A stretch of DNA of 33,960 nt from Tissierellia bacterium (GTDB lineage: Bacteria; Bacillota; Clostridia; Tissierellales; Tepidimicrobiaceae): the NCBI GenBank assembly GCA_012735405.1, contig JAAYHM010000189.1, positions 1 to 33,960 of the forward strand, given 5' to 3'. Below, one piece after another: positions 2,261-26,084 of the stretch. The position numbers and the translations under genes were made by a program. Below the pieces are notes generated by a model. The model had not been told where the DNA came from. It worked only from the letters and a program-made list of their open reading frames with translations, and searched no databases. Numbering within the stretch: the first letter of the stretch is position 1; each line of letters opens with the position of its first letter.

Positions 2261-3171
2261 TCTTCCTTAAATAATGCTGTGGAAAGATATCTTTCCCCTG
2301 TATCAGGGAGAACTGTTACTACCTTTCTACCTGGACCTAATTTCCTAGCTACCATTAGGGCTGCATATACATTGGCACCTGAGGATATTCCACAGAAAAC
2401 ACCTTCCTTTGTACCTAATAATCTGGCAGTTTCTAGTGCCTCTTCATCAGCTACTGTAATTATTTCATCTATTATTTCCCTGTTTAAAATTTTAGGTACA
2501 AAGTTAGCCCCAATTCCCTGGATTCCATGGCTTCCTGCTACTCCTTCAGTAAGCAAGGGAGATTTTTTGGGCTCTACGGCATATACTAAAGCATCCTTAT
2601 ATACTTCTTTTAATCTTTTACCAACTCCTGATATGGTTCCTCCAGTACCTATACCTGCCACAAAGGCATCTACATGGTCCATATCATTTAATATTTCTAC
2701 CGCTGTAGTTTCATAATGGGCTTTAACATTTGCAGGATTCTCAAATTGATTTGGCATAAAATATCCATTTTTATCTGCTAATTCCTTTGCCTTGTCTACT
2801 GCACCCTGCATTCCAAGTTTCCCTTCTGTAAGTATTAGTTCGGCACCATATGCTTTCATGAGCTTTCTTCTTTCTAATGACATTGTTTCAGGCATAACTA
2901 TTATTACCTTTAAATTCAGGGAGGTTCCTATCATAGCTAAAGCTATACCTGTATTTCCACTTGTTGGTTCTATAATTGTTCCTCCAGACTCTAAGACCCC
3001 TCTTTCAAGAGCATCCTTTATCATATATAAGGCTGGCCTATCCTTAACACTTCCTGCAGGATTAAAGGCTTCCATTTTTACATATACATCTGCCATACTT
3101 TCATCTACTATACTATTTAATTTTACTATGGGTGTTTTACCTATAGTTTCATGAATTCTACTATATTTCAT
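2257..3171 (-). CDS. cysK: Cysteine synthase A (O-acetylserine sulfhydrylase)
   Basis: 304 aa; [14 protein letters not shown]-lysine motif, [20 protein letters not shown]; overlaps cysE start by 4 nt. Confidence 0.95.
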
Positions 3172-19706: not shown

Positions 19707-19745
19707 AAAAAAGGAACATAGTTTTAAGTCTATGCTCCTTTTTTA
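19707..19745 (-). terminator. Intrinsic terminator of suf operon
   Basis: AAAAAAGGAACATAG-TTTTAAGT-CTATGCTCCTTTTTT overlapping the sufU 3' end. Confidence 0.75.
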
Positions 19746-20164
19746 ATGGCCTCCTTTAAAGTATGCCAGGATAAAACTGCGCATTTTACCCTTGCTGGCA
19801 TATTTGAAATATTTTTAAATACAATAGCATCCTCTAATACTTCCAGTTCTTCATCATCGGTTATTTCCTTTTTTATCATAGAAAGAAAAATATCTGCTAA
19901 CGTTTCTGCTTCTTCCTTTGATTTACCTTTTATAAGATCTATCATCATGGAAGTGGAAGCCTGGGAAATGGCACATCCAATTCCTGTAAAAGATGCATCT
20001 TTAATTGTTCCATCTTCCGAACAAACTAATTCCAGGGTTATATCATCACCACAACTGGGATTGTGTCCTCTTTCAGTACAATTGGCATCTTTAAGATGCC
20101 TTTTATTATGCCCACTTTGACTATGTTCAAGTATCAATTCAGTATAAAGTTCATTAAGATCCAT
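19730..20164 (-). CDS. sufU: Fe-S cluster assembly scaffold/sulfurtransferase SufU
   Basis: 144 aa; NPSCGDDITLEL, GIGCAISQASTSMM, RVKCAVLSWHTL. Confidence 0.95.
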   Translation of the reverse strand: MDLNELYTELILEHSQSGHNKRHLKDANCTERGHNPSCGDDITLELVCSEDGTIKDASFTGIGCAISQASTSMMIDLIKGKSKEEAETLADIFLSMIKKEITDDEELEVLEDAIVFKNISNMPARVKCAVLSWHTLKEAIKKGA

Positions 20165-21392
20165 AACCTAACCACTTCCTTACTTTACTTAGACTATCTA
20201 TAAATATATCTATTTCTTCCTTCGTATTATAGAAATAAAAGCTTATTCTAGAGGTTGCAGGAGCCTTTAAGTATTTCATCAGAGGCTGAGCACAGTGATG
20301 GCCTGCCCTTAAGGCTACCCCATAGCTATCAACTATAGTTGATACATCATGGGGATGGCAACCTTCAAGCCCAAATGAAATTACAGCACCTCTATCCTTC
20401 ATATCAAGGGGTCCATATATTTTAACATATGGGATTTCCTTTAATCTTTCCAATGCATAAGCTGTTAAGTTCTCTTCTTGTTTTTGTATATTTTCAAATC
20501 CTATTTTCTCAATATATTCTATGGCTGCCCTAAGTCCTACAGCTCCTTCCACATTTGGAGTGCCTGCCTCAAACTTTCTAGGAAGCTCTGCAAAGGTAGT
20601 TGTCTGCTCTTCAACATACTCAATCATATCTCCTCCCATTAGAAAAGGAGGCATTTTCTCTAATAATTCTTCCTTACCATATAATACGCCTATACCCATT
20701 GGTGCTAACATCTTATGACCTGAAAACACTAAAAAATCAGCATCTAAATCTAAAACATCTACTTTCATATGGGGTACACTCTGAGCCCCATCCACTATTA
20801 CTATGGCCCCTTTAGAATGGGCATATTCTGCAATTTCTTTAACTGGATATACGGTACCTAGAACATTGGACATTTGTGCCAAGGATACTATCTTTGTTCT
20901 ATCTGTAATTTTTCTTCTTACTTCTTCCATATCTAATCTATAATCTTCATTTAAGTATATATATTTTAACTTAGCATTTTTTATTTGAACAATTTTCTGC
21001 CAAGGCACAATATTACTATGGTGTTCTGATATTAACACCACAATTTCGTCCCCTTCTTCTATATATTTTAAACCATAGGAATAGGCTATTAAATTTAAGG
21101 CTTCCGTTGCATTTCTAGTAAATATTATTTCCCTTGCAGATTTAGCATTTATAAACTGTCTTACCTTTTCCCTGGAGCTTTCATAAAATTCTGTGGCTGA
21201 AACTCCAAGGTAATGGGCCCCTCTATTGGGATTTGCATTATACTTTTCATAATAATCTTTTATAGCATTTAGTACATATTTTGGCTTATGGGTTGTAGCT
21301 GCATTATCCAAATATACTAGAGTTTTTCCATTTACTTGTTGATTTAAAGTTGGAAAATCCTCTCTAATTTTTTCAACATTAAAGCTTACCAT
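20154..21392 (-). CDS. sufS: Cysteine desulfurase SufS
   Basis: 412 aa; YLDNAATTHKP, FSGHKMLAPMGIGVLYG, RAGHHCAQPLMK. Confidence 0.96.
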   Translation of the reverse strand: MVSFNVEKIREDFPTLNQQVNGKTLVYLDNAATTHKPKYVLNAIKDYYEKYNANPNRGAHYLGVSATEFYESSREKVRQFINAKSAREIIFTRNATEALNLIAYSYGLKYIEEGDEIVVLISEHHSNIVPWQKIVQIKNAKLKYIYLNEDYRLDMEEVRRKITDRTKIVSLAQMSNVLGTVYPVKEIAEYAHSKGAIVIVDGAQSVPHMKVDVLDLDADFLVFSGHKMLAPMGIGVLYGKEELLEKMPPFLMGGDMIEYVEEQTTTFAELPRKFEAGTPNVEGAVGLRAAIEYIEKIGFENIQKQEENLTAYALERLKEIPYVKIYGPLDMKDRGAVISFGLEGCHPHDVSTIVDSYGVALRAGHHCAQPLMKYLKAPATSRISFYFYNTKEEIDIFIDSLSKVRKWLGYGS

Positions 21393-22513
21393 TTTCTATC
21401 CTCCATAACAAGCTTTCTTGCTAGTTCATCTTTAATAATGTTTTTTACATCCTCCATAGGAATCTTGTCAATTATAGGATTAAAGGAAGCCTCAACTAAT
21501 GCTTTCAAAGCTTCTCTCTTTGAAAAACCACGGCTCATCATATAAAACAGCTTATCCTCATCTACCTTTCCTGAACTGGCAGCATGTTCACCAACTACAT
21601 CATCTTCTGTACATAACAATAATGGAACTTGCTTTGATACTACAGTATTATCAAGTAATATTACGGATTCTTCTTCTTTTCCTACAGATTGACTTGAGCC
21701 TAATTTAAAATCAATGGTTCCCTTAAATAATTTCCTTGCTCTGTCCTTAAGAGCTCCCTTTGTTTCAATATTGCTTATGCTCCTTCTTCCAATATGGTTC
21801 ATATAATAGCTTAAGTCTAATTCCCTATCCTTATCCCCTAAATATATTGAATCTATGGATGCTTTGCCTTCTTCCTTTATGTTGGATATATAGTTTGTAA
21901 CAGATCTTTTGCTCCCAAATTCTACCTGTATGAAATTTACCTCTGCACCAGGCTCCACTATTGCAAGATTTGAATCAAAGTGGTTTGAATAGTCGTTCAT
22001 TCTTTGTATCTTTATAACTGTGACACTGGCTCCAGGCATTGCGTAAATTTTCAAGGCCCCATTGTGGAAGGCATCTACATCATCAAGTGTATAATAATCT
22101 ATAACAATGGTAGCTTTACTGTTTTCTGAAGCTACGATTACATTGTTATCTATAACAAGATCATTTTCTTTGTCCATTCCATACTTAATTCTTATTGGTT
22201 TTTCAATATTTGCTCCTCTTTTAATATAGGCATATATTCCTGCATTATGGGAGTTTTCAGCTAATTCTACCATTTTCTTAGACACGCCATATTCACATTT
22301 TTCATTATTAATTCTATTTAAATGCTGATTTATAGAAACTATATTATTTATAGTGCCAATAGAAATATTTTCATCATCTATATCCCCAAGATATTTTTTA
22401 TTATAAGGCTTTTTAGCCTTATTTATGACTTCATCTATTTTTAAATGGTTTACATTTAACCACCTATATGTTTTTACCGGAATGGAGTTCAATTCATCCT
22501 TAATTTCCATCAC
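21386..22513 (-). CDS. sufD: Fe-S cluster assembly protein SufD
   Basis: 375 aa; C-terminal EHAASSGKVDEDKLFYMMSRGFSKREALKALVEASF. Confidence 0.92.
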   Translation of the reverse strand: MMEIKDELNSIPVKTYRWLNVNHLKIDEVINKAKKPYNKKYLGDIDDENISIGTINNIVSINQHLNRINNEKCEYGVSKKMVELAENSHNAGIYAYIKRGANIEKPIRIKYGMDKENDLVIDNNVIVASENSKATIVIDYYTLDDVDAFHNGALKIYAMPGASVTVIKIQRMNDYSNHFDSNLAIVEPGAEVNFIQVEFGSKRSVTNYISNIKEEGKASIDSIYLGDKDRELDLSYYMNHIGRRSISNIETKGALKDRARKLFKGTIDFKLGSSQSVGKEEESVILLDNTVVSKQVPLLLCTEDDVVGEHAASSGKVDEDKLFYMMSRGFSKREALKALVEASFNPIIDKIPMEDVKNIIKDELARKLVMEDRKW

Positions 22514-22525
22514 TTATATCACTCC

Positions 22526-23944
22526 TTAACCAATAGTGCCTTCTAGCTCTAGATTTATTAAATTGTTCATCTCTACAGCATACTCTAGTGGTAATTCTTT
22601 TGAAATTGGTTCAACAAAACCTCTTACTATCATAGCCTTAGCTTCCTCTTCACTAATTCCTCTACTCATAAGATAAAATATAGCCTCATCACTTATCCTA
22701 CCTATTTTAGCCTCATGGCCTATATCGACTTCATCATTTCTTATATCCATAACTGGTATTGTATCGGATCTTGATTTATTATCCAGCATCAATGATTCAC
22801 ATGATATTGTAGATTTACAGTGATGAGCATTTTCTGTTATAGTTAAAGATCCCCTATATACTGCTACACCACCATCTTTTGAAATAGATTTAGTATTGAT
22901 GCTTGAAGTAGTATATGGTGCAGCATGTACAACTTTAGCACCAGTATCAAGGTATTGACCATTACCTGCAAAGGTTATACTTGTAAATTCTGCCCTTGCG
23001 CCTTCGCCCTTTAAAATGCTCATAGGATAAAGCATTGAAACCTTTGAACCAAAGGAACCAGATATCCACTCTATTATTCCATTCTTTTCTACTATAGCCC
23101 TTTTTGTATTTAAGTTAAACATATTCTTTGACCAGTTTTCTATAGTAGAATATCTTAATCTAGCTCCTTCCTTAACGATCAACTCCACACAACCTGCATG
23201 GAGATTATTTACAGAATACTTTGGTGCTGAGCATCCTTCTATAAAATGAAGAAAAGCTCCCTTTTCAACTATAATCAAAGTATGTTCAAACTGACCTGCT
23301 CCAGGAGCATTTAACCTGAAATAGGATTGTAAAGGTATATCTACATGGACACCTTCAGGAATATATACAAAGGAGCCTCCTGACCAAACTGCTCCATGAA
23401 GGGCTGCAAACTTATGGTCACTTGGTGGTACGACTGTCATAAAATGCTCTTTTATAACATCCTCATATTCTTTAACAGCAGTTTCCATATCTGTATATAT
23501 AACACCTTTCTGAGCAAGATACCCTTTAAGATTGTGATAAACCACTTCTGAATCGTATTGAGCACCTACTCCTGCAAGAGATTTATGTTCAGCTTCTGGA
23601 ATACCCAGTCTCACAAAAGTCTCCTTTATATCTTCAGGTACATCATCCCAGGTATATTTCATATCTGTTTTAGGTTTAACATAAGTAACTATATTATCTA
23701 TATCCAATTCATCAAGATTTGGTCCCCAAACTGGTAGATCTAATTTATTGTAAATTTCCAAAGATTTTAGGCGGAAGTCTGTCATCCACTTTGGTTCATT
23801 TTTTTTCCTTGAAATATCCTTTACTATTTCCTCTGTTAATCCTTTTTCGGCTATATAATCATATTTAAATTCATTTCTTATATCATATATACCACGGTCT
23901 ATATCTTCCACGTAAGTTTTTCTTCTTGTATCCATATGCCTCAC
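22526..23944 (-). CDS. sufB: Fe-S cluster assembly protein SufB
   Basis: 472 aa; FRLNAPGAGQFEHTLIIVEKGAFLHFIEGCSAP, IGHEAKIGRISDEAIFYLMSRGISEEEAKAMIVRGF. Confidence 0.97.
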   Translation of the reverse strand: MRHMDTRRKTYVEDIDRGIYDIRNEFKYDYIAEKGLTEEIVKDISRKKNEPKWMTDFRLKSLEIYNKLDLPVWGPNLDELDIDNIVTYVKPKTDMKYTWDDVPEDIKETFVRLGIPEAEHKSLAGVGAQYDSEVVYHNLKGYLAQKGVIYTDMETAVKEYEDVIKEHFMTVVPPSDHKFAALHGAVWSGGSFVYIPEGVHVDIPLQSYFRLNAPGAGQFEHTLIIVEKGAFLHFIEGCSAPKYSVNNLHAGCVELIVKEGARLRYSTIENWSKNMFNLNTKRAIVEKNGIIEWISGSFGSKVSMLYPMSILKGEGARAEFTSITFAGNGQYLDTGAKVVHAAPYTTSSINTKSISKDGGVAVYRGSLTITENAHHCKSTISCESLMLDNKSRSDTIPVMDIRNDEVDIGHEAKIGRISDEAIFYLMSRGISEEEAKAMIVRGFVEPISKELPLEYAVEMNNLINLELEGTIG

Positions 23945-23953
23945 CCTGTTCCT

Positions 23954-24700
23954 TTAGTTTTTGAAAGCTTCAAAGCCTTCCTTTTCTATAATGTCAATCA
24001 GGCTCATATCACCACTTTTTACTATTTTTCCATCAATTAAGAAATGAACATAATCTGGATTTAAGTATTCTAATAGATTGTTATGATGGGTTATAATAAT
24101 AATTGAGTTTTCATCTGATCTGTACTCTTTTACTCCAGTAGCTACAACTCTGACTGCATCCACATCAAGTCCAGAATCTGTTTCATCTAATATGGCAAGC
24201 TTTGGTTCTAAAATTAAAAGCTGTAATATTTCGCTTTTTTTCTTTTCTCCTCCTGAAAAACCTTCATTTAAATATCTTTTAGCGTATTCTTCCTTCATAT
24301 CCAATAGTTTCATTTTTTCCTTTAAGGTCTTTTTAAATTCCATAATCTTTATTGGCTTGTCTTCCACTGCCATTTTAGCTGAACGCAAAAAGTTCTCTAC
24401 TGTAATTCCTGGAATTTCCTCTGGATATTGGAATGACATGAATATTCCTAGCTTTGCCCTTTCATCTACCTTTGTATCATTTATTATTTGACCTTCAAAT
24501 TCAATTTCTCCTTCAGTGATTTCATACTTTGGATTGCCCATTAGTACATTGGCAAGAGTTGATTTTCCTGCACCATTAGGACCCATAATTACATGTACTT
24601 CTCCCTTATTGATATCAAGATTTAAACCTTTTAGAATCTCATTGTCTCCTACTTTTACATGTAAATTCTTTATAGATAAAAATTTGTTTCCCATAATCAT
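23954..24700 (-). CDS. sufC: Fe-S cluster assembly ATPase SufC
   Basis: 248 aa ABC ATPase; Walker A GPNGAGKST, GFSGGEKKKSEILQLLILEPKLAILDETDSGLDVDA. Confidence 0.97.
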   Translation of the reverse strand: MIMGNKFLSIKNLHVKVGDNEILKGLNLDINKGEVHVIMGPNGAGKSTLANVLMGNPKYEITEGEIEFEGQIINDTKVDERAKLGIFMSFQYPEEIPGITVENFLRSAKMAVEDKPIKIMEFKKTLKEKMKLLDMKEEYAKRYLNEGFSGGEKKKSEILQLLILEPKLAILDETDSGLDVDAVRVVATGVKEYRSDENSIIIITHHNNLLEYLNPDYVHFLIDGKIVKSGDMSLIDIIEKEGFEAFKN

Positions 24701-24739
24701 ACTCCTTTATCCTTTAATTCCTACTATTTTACTATACAT

Positions 24740-24776
24740 TAAAGGATACCACATATTACTTGCGTTCGCAACTATT
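24740..24776 (-). promoter_or_regulatory. suf promoter with overlapping palindrome TTGCG-TT-CGCAA (24760-24771)
   Basis: Minus strand TTGCGA-17 nt-TATCCT; palindrome covers the -35 box. Confidence 0.7.
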
Positions 24777-24799
24777 TTTGAAAAATATTTTAATATAAA

Positions 24800-24837
24800 A
24801 AAAGACATGTTGGTGGGACTTCCACCAATATGTCCAA
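24800..24837 (-). terminator. Intrinsic terminator after marR-like gene
   Basis: Minus strand GGACATATTGGTGG-AAGT-CCCACCAACATGTCTTTTTTT. Confidence 0.8.
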
Positions 24838-24842
24838 CTTAT

Positions 24843-25307
24843 CTACATGCAATCTCTTTTACACATTTCACATCTATTATTTTCAACCTTAGCATGTCCT
24901 ATTTTCTTTAGCAATTCACTTAGCACCTGTTTTTCAACTTTTGTTAGATTTTCCAAAAGTAAATTTTCCCATTGGTTTATTAAACCTAGCACCTTTGGTT
25001 TTATATCCATAGCCTTTTTAGTTAGATAAATTCTCTTTACTCTCCTATCCTTCTCATCCTGCTTCCTTACAACGTATCCTTCCTTTTCCAGCTTATTTAT
25101 AGCTCTAGTAGTATTTGCACCATCAATACTTAAATAGGATGAAAGTTCTTCCTGGCTTATACCATCACAATAGTATAATTCCAGCAAAAACATTATCTGT
25201 CCACTGCCTATATTGTATTCCTCAAGTCCTTCATATACAAAACTTAAATAAAGCCTGTGAAAAACTGAAAACCATCTACTTATGTAATCATCTGGACAAT
25301 TCCTCAA
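24843..25307 (-). CDS. MarR-family regulator with C-terminal CX2CX3C
   Basis: 154 aa; wHTH ISQEELSSYLSIDGANTTRAINKLEKEGYVVRKQDEKDRRVKRIYLT; C-terminus ENNRCEMCKRDCM; TTG start with RBS GGAGGAG. Confidence 0.9.
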   Translation of the reverse strand: MRNCPDDYISRWFSVFHRLYLSFVYEGLEEYNIGSGQIMFLLELYYCDGISQEELSSYLSIDGANTTRAINKLEKEGYVVRKQDEKDRRVKRIYLTKKAMDIKPKVLGLINQWENLLLENLTKVEKQVLSELLKKIGHAKVENNRCEMCKRDCM

Positions 25308-25327
25308 AATTAACTCCTCCCATTTTT

Positions 25328-25365
25328 TTATCTAATATAACATAATTAAATTGCTTTCGCAATTA
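25328..25365 (-). promoter_or_regulatory. marR-like gene promoter with palindrome TTGCTTTCGCAA (25351-25362)
   Basis: Minus strand TTGCGA-17 nt-TATATT; AATTGC-TTTC-GCAATT overlaps -35. Confidence 0.7.
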
Positions 25366-25367
25366 AT

Positions 25368-26084
25368 TTATTTAAATTTATAACCACTCAAAGATAATAT
25401 AAGCTGGGAAGGTAAATAAAATAACCACATGGCTACAAGGGATATTTGGTAAACCAAGCTATTATATTTAAAATATACACCTTTAATAATATTAAAAATA
25501 GCCACATTTATATCACATAATAAAAAAAGAAACATGCCAGCAACTACCATTATACTATTCAGTTTAGGAAAAGTCTTTTCTTTATAAACTAATATGGACA
25601 TGTAAACATTTGTTACAAGACAAACTCCATAAGATAGGCCAAGAGCTATTATAAGAGGAATATTAATAAAAAAGTTTATTATAATATATAAGAAAAATAT
25701 ACCCCCTAGTATTTTAATATACCTTTTTATAATGCAGCTCCTTTTTCTTGTAGCATATCTTATTGAATATGTAATCTGTGCAAGTATAAATATGGCTATG
25801 CCAATTTCATAATAATCATCCAATATTAAGAGAAAATAATCTGCAATTACTGTTAATAAAAGACCAATTTGTAACAATTTAATATTATACAGGTCAAAAG
25901 CATTATGTCTTGACAATAAGGAAATAAAAAAACATAGTATTATACATATAAACTTTAAATTTTTTGATAGCTTTATATATTTGTTATTTATATCCAGGAA
26001 TAAAAAGATTAAGTAAAATATTATAACTGAAATTAATAGGTATCTTATTATTGTCCTATAATTTATTTTTTTCATTTGAAACAC
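25368..26084 (-). CDS. YhhN-like (lysoplasmalogenase family) membrane protein
   Basis: 238 aa, multi-TM; ADYFLLILDDYYEIGIAIFILAQITYSIRY and MFLFLLCDINVAIFNI spacing resembles YhhN/TMEM86. Confidence 0.6.
   Translation of the reverse strand: MFQMKKINYRTIIRYLLISVIIFYLIFLFLDINNKYIKLSKNLKFICIILCFFISLLSRHNAFDLYNIKLLQIGLLLTVIADYFLLILDDYYEIGIAIFILAQITYSIRYATRKRSCIIKRYIKILGGIFFLYIIINFFINIPLIIALGLSYGVCLVTNVYMSILVYKEKTFPKLNSIMVVAGMFLFLLCDINVAIFNIIKGVYFKYNSLVYQISLVAMWLFYLPSQLILSLSGYKFK

Follow-up and report, generated by a model that had tools for sequence, protein, structure and literature searches.

The window analysed here, a stretch of 33,960 nt from a Tissierellia bacterium, carries on its minus strand a suf gene cluster and, directly upstream of it, a marR-like gene. 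The suf genes all score above the cut-offs of their family models: sufC (23954-24700; TIGR01978, 356 bits versus a cut-off of 213), sufB (22526-23944; TIGR01980, 729 bits versus 346), sufD (21386-22513; TIGR01981, 230 bits versus 222), sufS (20154-21392; TIGR01979, 625 bits versus 475) and sufU (19730-20164; TIGR01994, 175 bits versus 93). The marR-like gene (24843-25307, minus strand) encodes a protein of 154 aa that contains the MarR winged-helix domain (PF01047, 52 bits with a cut-off of 24.6, E = 4.7e-14). It begins with a TTG codon with GGGAGGAG ahead of the start, and this TTG start is kept in four orthologues that are 92-71% identical and located upstream of sufC. Upstream of marR lies a gene for a YhhN-family membrane protein (25368-26084), and the marR promoter starts right where this gene ends; in three of the orthologous genomes (L008-L010) a nitrilase-like gene, recognised by eye, replaces the YhhN gene directly upstream of marR. 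No MatE gene adjoins the suf-linked marR, its neighbours being suf and YhhN genes, and no Rfam families were found in the region.

The gap between marR and sufC is occupied by an intrinsic terminator (24797-24834, minus strand), a hairpin followed by a T7 tract. Relatives have hairpins at the equivalent position that differ in sequence. As this hairpin lies between marR and sufC, the two form separate transcription units, and separate operators are therefore needed.

Each unit is preceded by a minus-strand promoter with the -35 hexamer TTGCGA, a 17-nt spacer and an extended -10 box with TG one base ahead, which fits the weakness of the -35 hexamer. In the suf promoter (24743-24771) the -35 lies at 24766-24771 and the -10 reads TG-G-TATCCT (TATCCT at 24743-24748). 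In the marR promoter (25334-25362), which was also picked up by a consensus promoter scan, the -35 lies at 25357-25362 and the -10 reads TG-T-TATATT (TATATT at 25334-25339). A palindrome covers each of the two -35 boxes. At suf this is TTGCGTTCGCAA at 24760-24771, which reads TTGCGAACGCAA on the minus strand within the context AGTTGCGAACGCAAGT, and which we designate the suf operator from its sequence and its conservation in five genomes. At marR it is TTGCTTTCGCAA at 25351-25362, TTGCGAAAGCAA on the minus strand, a predicted autoregulatory operator identified from its sequence and its equal position in the orthologues, one of which has a degenerate copy. The initial annotation of this DNA had reported both palindromes and both promoters, with the same register over the -35 boxes of sufC and marR and an identical spacer, and we found its description to be exact to the base.

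That annotation had named conservation of the palindrome in relatives as the test of its reading. Of the 20 family genomes, five encode the suf-linked MarR (the window's own and four others at 92, 81, 75 and 71% identity), with the gene directly upstream of sufC in all five, and both operator sites recur in equal -35 register in every one of them. The suf operator is placed exactly 17 nt from the -10 box in all five, with the extended -10 also retained. It reads TTGCGAACGCAA in four genomes and TTGCGTACGCAA in the fifth (L007), where one base is changed and the palindrome is still perfect. Its right half, which lies in the spacer and outside the -35, is invariant at 6 of 6 positions across the five genomes versus 20% invariant columns in the upstream and downstream flanks, an invariance that promoter function does not explain. 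The marR-side site is in register but looser, with TTGCGAAAGCAA in three genomes, TTGCTCACGCAA in one and the weaker TTGCGAAAACAA in one; it is degenerate in L008 and altered in L009.

The site and the gene also occur together. Among the 20 family genomes scanned, TTGCGNACGCAA is present in exactly the five that have marR, where it is located at the sufC promoter only, and it was not found in any of the 15 family genomes without this marR. A sufC gene is present in 12 of the 20 genomes, seven of which have suf with neither the MarR nor the site. Simple probabilities for this co-occurrence are 1 in 15,504 and 1 in 792 if the genomes are independent, figures that are overstated because the five genomes are related and not independent trials. 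When the operator together with the extended -10 was scanned across the order, 6 of 248 genomes matched: the five marR-bearing ones and one with a match in coding sequence, which is a chance hit. A class-wide protein profile search over 391 sampled genomes returned no further orthologue, with no match at the orthologue level beyond the family, and no second close MarR paralogue was found in the window's genome.

Furthermore, we collected distant homologues of this MarR from the order and the class, at about 30-47% identity, with 27 upstream regions (loci L025-L039 and L096-L107). The sequence AGTTG-N6-CAACT, with at most one mismatch, lies upstream of the homologue's own gene in 20 of the 27, compared with a mean of 0.135 and a maximum of 2 in shuffles. 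TTG-N6-CAA is therefore the operator type of this MarR subfamily, and this links the site to the suf-linked MarR and not to some other factor. The suf site AGTTGCGAACGCAAGT fits AGTTG-N6-CAACT with one mismatch and the marR own-gene site AATTGCGAAAGCAATT with two. The distant homologues are often found beside a MATE exporter (ten neighbouring proteins were tested and all match PF01554), and no match to SufB or SufC was found in the 27 loci within about 1.5 kb on each side. Apart from this frequent MatE neighbour, the MATE-linked genes differ from the suf-linked ones in often having a tandem pair of AGTTG-N6-CAACT operators with a distance of about 31-44 bp between them, and some of them use AGTTGA-N4-TCAACT in its place.

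Collectively, the conservation of the sites and the subfamily operator constitute comparative evidence of two independent kinds, by which the earlier proposal of one repressor for both units, with the adjacent MarR as the candidate, is well supported. We infer that the product of 24843-25307 would act as a homodimeric MarR-family repressor on TTGC-N4-GCAA palindromes over the -35 boxes of the marR and sufCBDSU promoters, and that the bound protein would block RNA polymerase at both promoters. One signal would then relieve both units, combining negative autoregulation with co-regulation of suf. We put the probability of this core claim, binding of MarR to the two sites and repression of the suf and marR units alike, at roughly 85%. 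Activation by a MarR protein from a site that overlaps the -35 is less usual.

Next to the operator, the cysteines set the suf-linked proteins apart. A C-terminal C-x2-C-x3-C motif (Cys146, Cys149 and Cys153; codons at 24849-24872, minus strand) and Cys4 (codon at 25296-25298, minus strand) are common to all five suf-linked orthologues, in a tail that is otherwise variable. None of the 27 distant homologues has the C-terminal triad; most of them also lack Cys4, and a few have a cysteine near position 4. This confinement of the four cysteines to the suf-linked clade is the pattern expected if they arrived with a new role. The clade looks like the recruitment of an exporter-linked MarR to suf: an ancestor from the subfamily that usually lies beside MATE exporters would have been taken over within a single clade of the family, a small group of anaerobic Tissierellia, its DNA specificity apparently kept constant while the target changed and Cys4 and C146-x2-C149-x3-C153 were gained as candidate sensor residues.

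These cysteines probably respond to the status of Fe-S clusters, metals or thiols, and a role of the four as an Fe-S, metal (zinc, iron) or thiol sensor is plausible. For Fe-S or metal sensing by the suf-linked MarR, we would give somewhat less than even odds. Slightly more tentative is the idea of an Fe-S (or iron) sensor built on the MarR fold, with an origin separate from IscR and SufR: a MATE-type MarR would have retained its operator, acquired a cluster site of four cysteines and become a dedicated, autoregulating suf repressor. The AlphaFold model of the protein is confident in the core only and of low quality towards both termini, with residues 135-154 at pLDDT <50 and the cysteines not placeable. 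The best solved match of the predicted fold is 3s2w, a plain MarR from Methanosarcina (E = 1.4e-10).

Alternatively, MarR may bind both sites but take its signal from a small molecule or a drug-like compound, as its MATE-linked relatives do. The cysteines would then hold a structural zinc or act as redox thiols, and the induction of suf would belong to a general stress response. We regard this as a real possibility that stays short of probable. The complete four-cysteine set, found in the suf-linked clade only, and the lack of an exporter adjoining the suf-linked marR both weigh against it, whereas the closest relatives do adjoin MATE exporters and share the operator. The best NCBIfam match of the MarR, BilQ (NF045593), points the same way as these relatives; as an assignment it was rejected, with 85.8 bits falling below the cut-off of 125 and with suf genes as the neighbours.

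The initial annotation had also seen no IscR- or SufR-type gene nearby, a statement that holds for the locus but not for the genome. Two Rrf2 proteins are encoded in this genome (PF02082 matches on contigs C39 and C151), neither of them at the suf/marR locus, and the suf-linked marR product itself has no Rrf2 domain. One of the two is a true IscR with C-x7-C-x5-C that heads, on another contig than suf, an operon also encoding a cysteine desulfurase and a scaffold protein similar to IscU (iscR-iscS-iscU). Its gene lies at about 2567-3097 on the minus strand of L056 (contig C39), and the organism thus has both ISC and SUF systems. An IscR-type protein with C-x7-C-x5-C is present in all 20 family genomes, and the iscR promoters are closely similar. 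A profile built from the 20 iscR promoters scores 16.3 bits on ATGTATAGTAAAATAGTAGGAATTAAA (24713-24739, minus strand), an IscR-like element in the suf leader that spans the predicted suf transcription start; none of 300 shuffles scored as high. Related elements, some strong and some weak, occur at the other sufC promoters, in MarR-bearing and in most MarR-less genomes.

With this element in the suf leader and an IscR elsewhere in the genome, suf likely receives two inputs, of which MarR is one. Thus suf is probably under the control of MarR and IscR, MarR not being its sole regulator, and IscR, encoded with the isc operon, probably acts on the element over the suf start site. Fur-like boxes (AATAATGATAGTCGTTATC, GATAATGATAATAGTTATC) are clear in the MarR-less sufC promoters of L049 and L054, and the window's sufC promoter is without one. 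An exchange of regulators, Fur-like boxes versus the MarR operator, is possible at sufC promoters; that MarR stands in for Fur in its clade is speculative.

These elements raise the question of whether IscR, or Fur in some relatives, exerts the main control over suf, with MarR as a minor or condition-specific modulator. The sharing of the IscR-like element between iscR promoters and the suf leaders of MarR-bearing and most MarR-less genomes speaks for this view, as do the Fur-like boxes of L049 and L054. We nevertheless consider it unlikely, because no block of the suf promoter is as strongly constrained across the five genomes as the MarR operator, the IscR-like element included.

Since the binding of MarR to the sites is predicted, one can also imagine that another protein binds the palindromes and that marR is a mere neighbour; co-occurrence of site and gene in 5 of 5 genomes versus 0 of 15, together with the presence of this operator type ahead of genes of the same MarR subfamily at unrelated loci, makes this very improbable. 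As for a chance origin, palindromes are no more frequent than expected, with 3 found in the window at up to two mismatches versus 2.6 expected, and three genome-wide at up to one mismatch, the same as in a reversed-pattern control. Two of the three in the 2.2 Mb genome are the suf and marR promoter sites, 580 bp apart, and the third lies on contig C47, within or beside coding sequence. The count alone is uninformative; the case lies in position and conservation, both above chance, and recurrence in five species, in equal register and with an invariant spacer half, contradicts a chance origin to the point that we give it almost no weight. The extended operator AGTTGCNNNNGCAACT, with two mismatches allowed, has 144 sites in the genome, and we claim no wider regulon.

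The regulation of suf in most Gram-positives that are without SufR is unknown (PMC8593673), and the locus supplies a concrete and directly testable regulator, operator pair and register for this control. In the literature on MarR with suf or Fe-S, with subscription papers outside the search, we found no described MarR regulator of suf. The system predicted here resembles SufR, a DeoR/ArsR-type [4Fe-4S] repressor of Cyanobacteria and Actinobacteria, in having the repressor gene beside suf, autoregulation, a palindromic operator and C-terminal cysteines (PMC8593673). However, SufR recognises CAAC-N6-GTTG and holds its cluster by widely spaced cysteines, C-x12-C-x13-C-x14-C (PMC8593673), while the protein described here belongs to the MarR family, with TTG-N6-CAA and with C-x2-C-x3-C plus Cys4. 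No SufR model is among the NCBIfam matches of the five orthologues, and the suf-linked MarR would be at most a functional analogue of SufR, not a member.

Two other systems share part of this design. ArnR of Corynebacterium demonstrates that a MarR/ArsR-like winged helix is able to carry a [4Fe-4S] cluster (PMC12343034), but it has a separate C-terminal sensory domain, another cysteine spacing and nitrate respiration genes as targets. In Streptococcus mutans, PerR represses sufCDSUB (PMC11631912) and is likewise a suf repressor in a Gram-positive without SufR, yet it is a Fur-family protein acting on PerR/Fur-type boxes, not a MarR with TTG-N6-CAA.

IscR, finally, is comparable in regulating Fe-S assembly genes, but it belongs to another protein family (Rrf2), has other binding sequences and is not adjacent to suf here. 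A near-perfect IscR-like palindrome, AATTCCTAGTAAAACACTAGGAATT, lies at about 1495-1520 of L066 (contig C137), upstream of a gene for an uncharacterised membrane-like protein. The second Rrf2 protein of the genome (L005/L057, contig C151), which is without the IscR cysteines, is encoded beside a large carbon-monoxide dehydrogenase-like gene and a ferredoxin-like gene, both recognised by eye.
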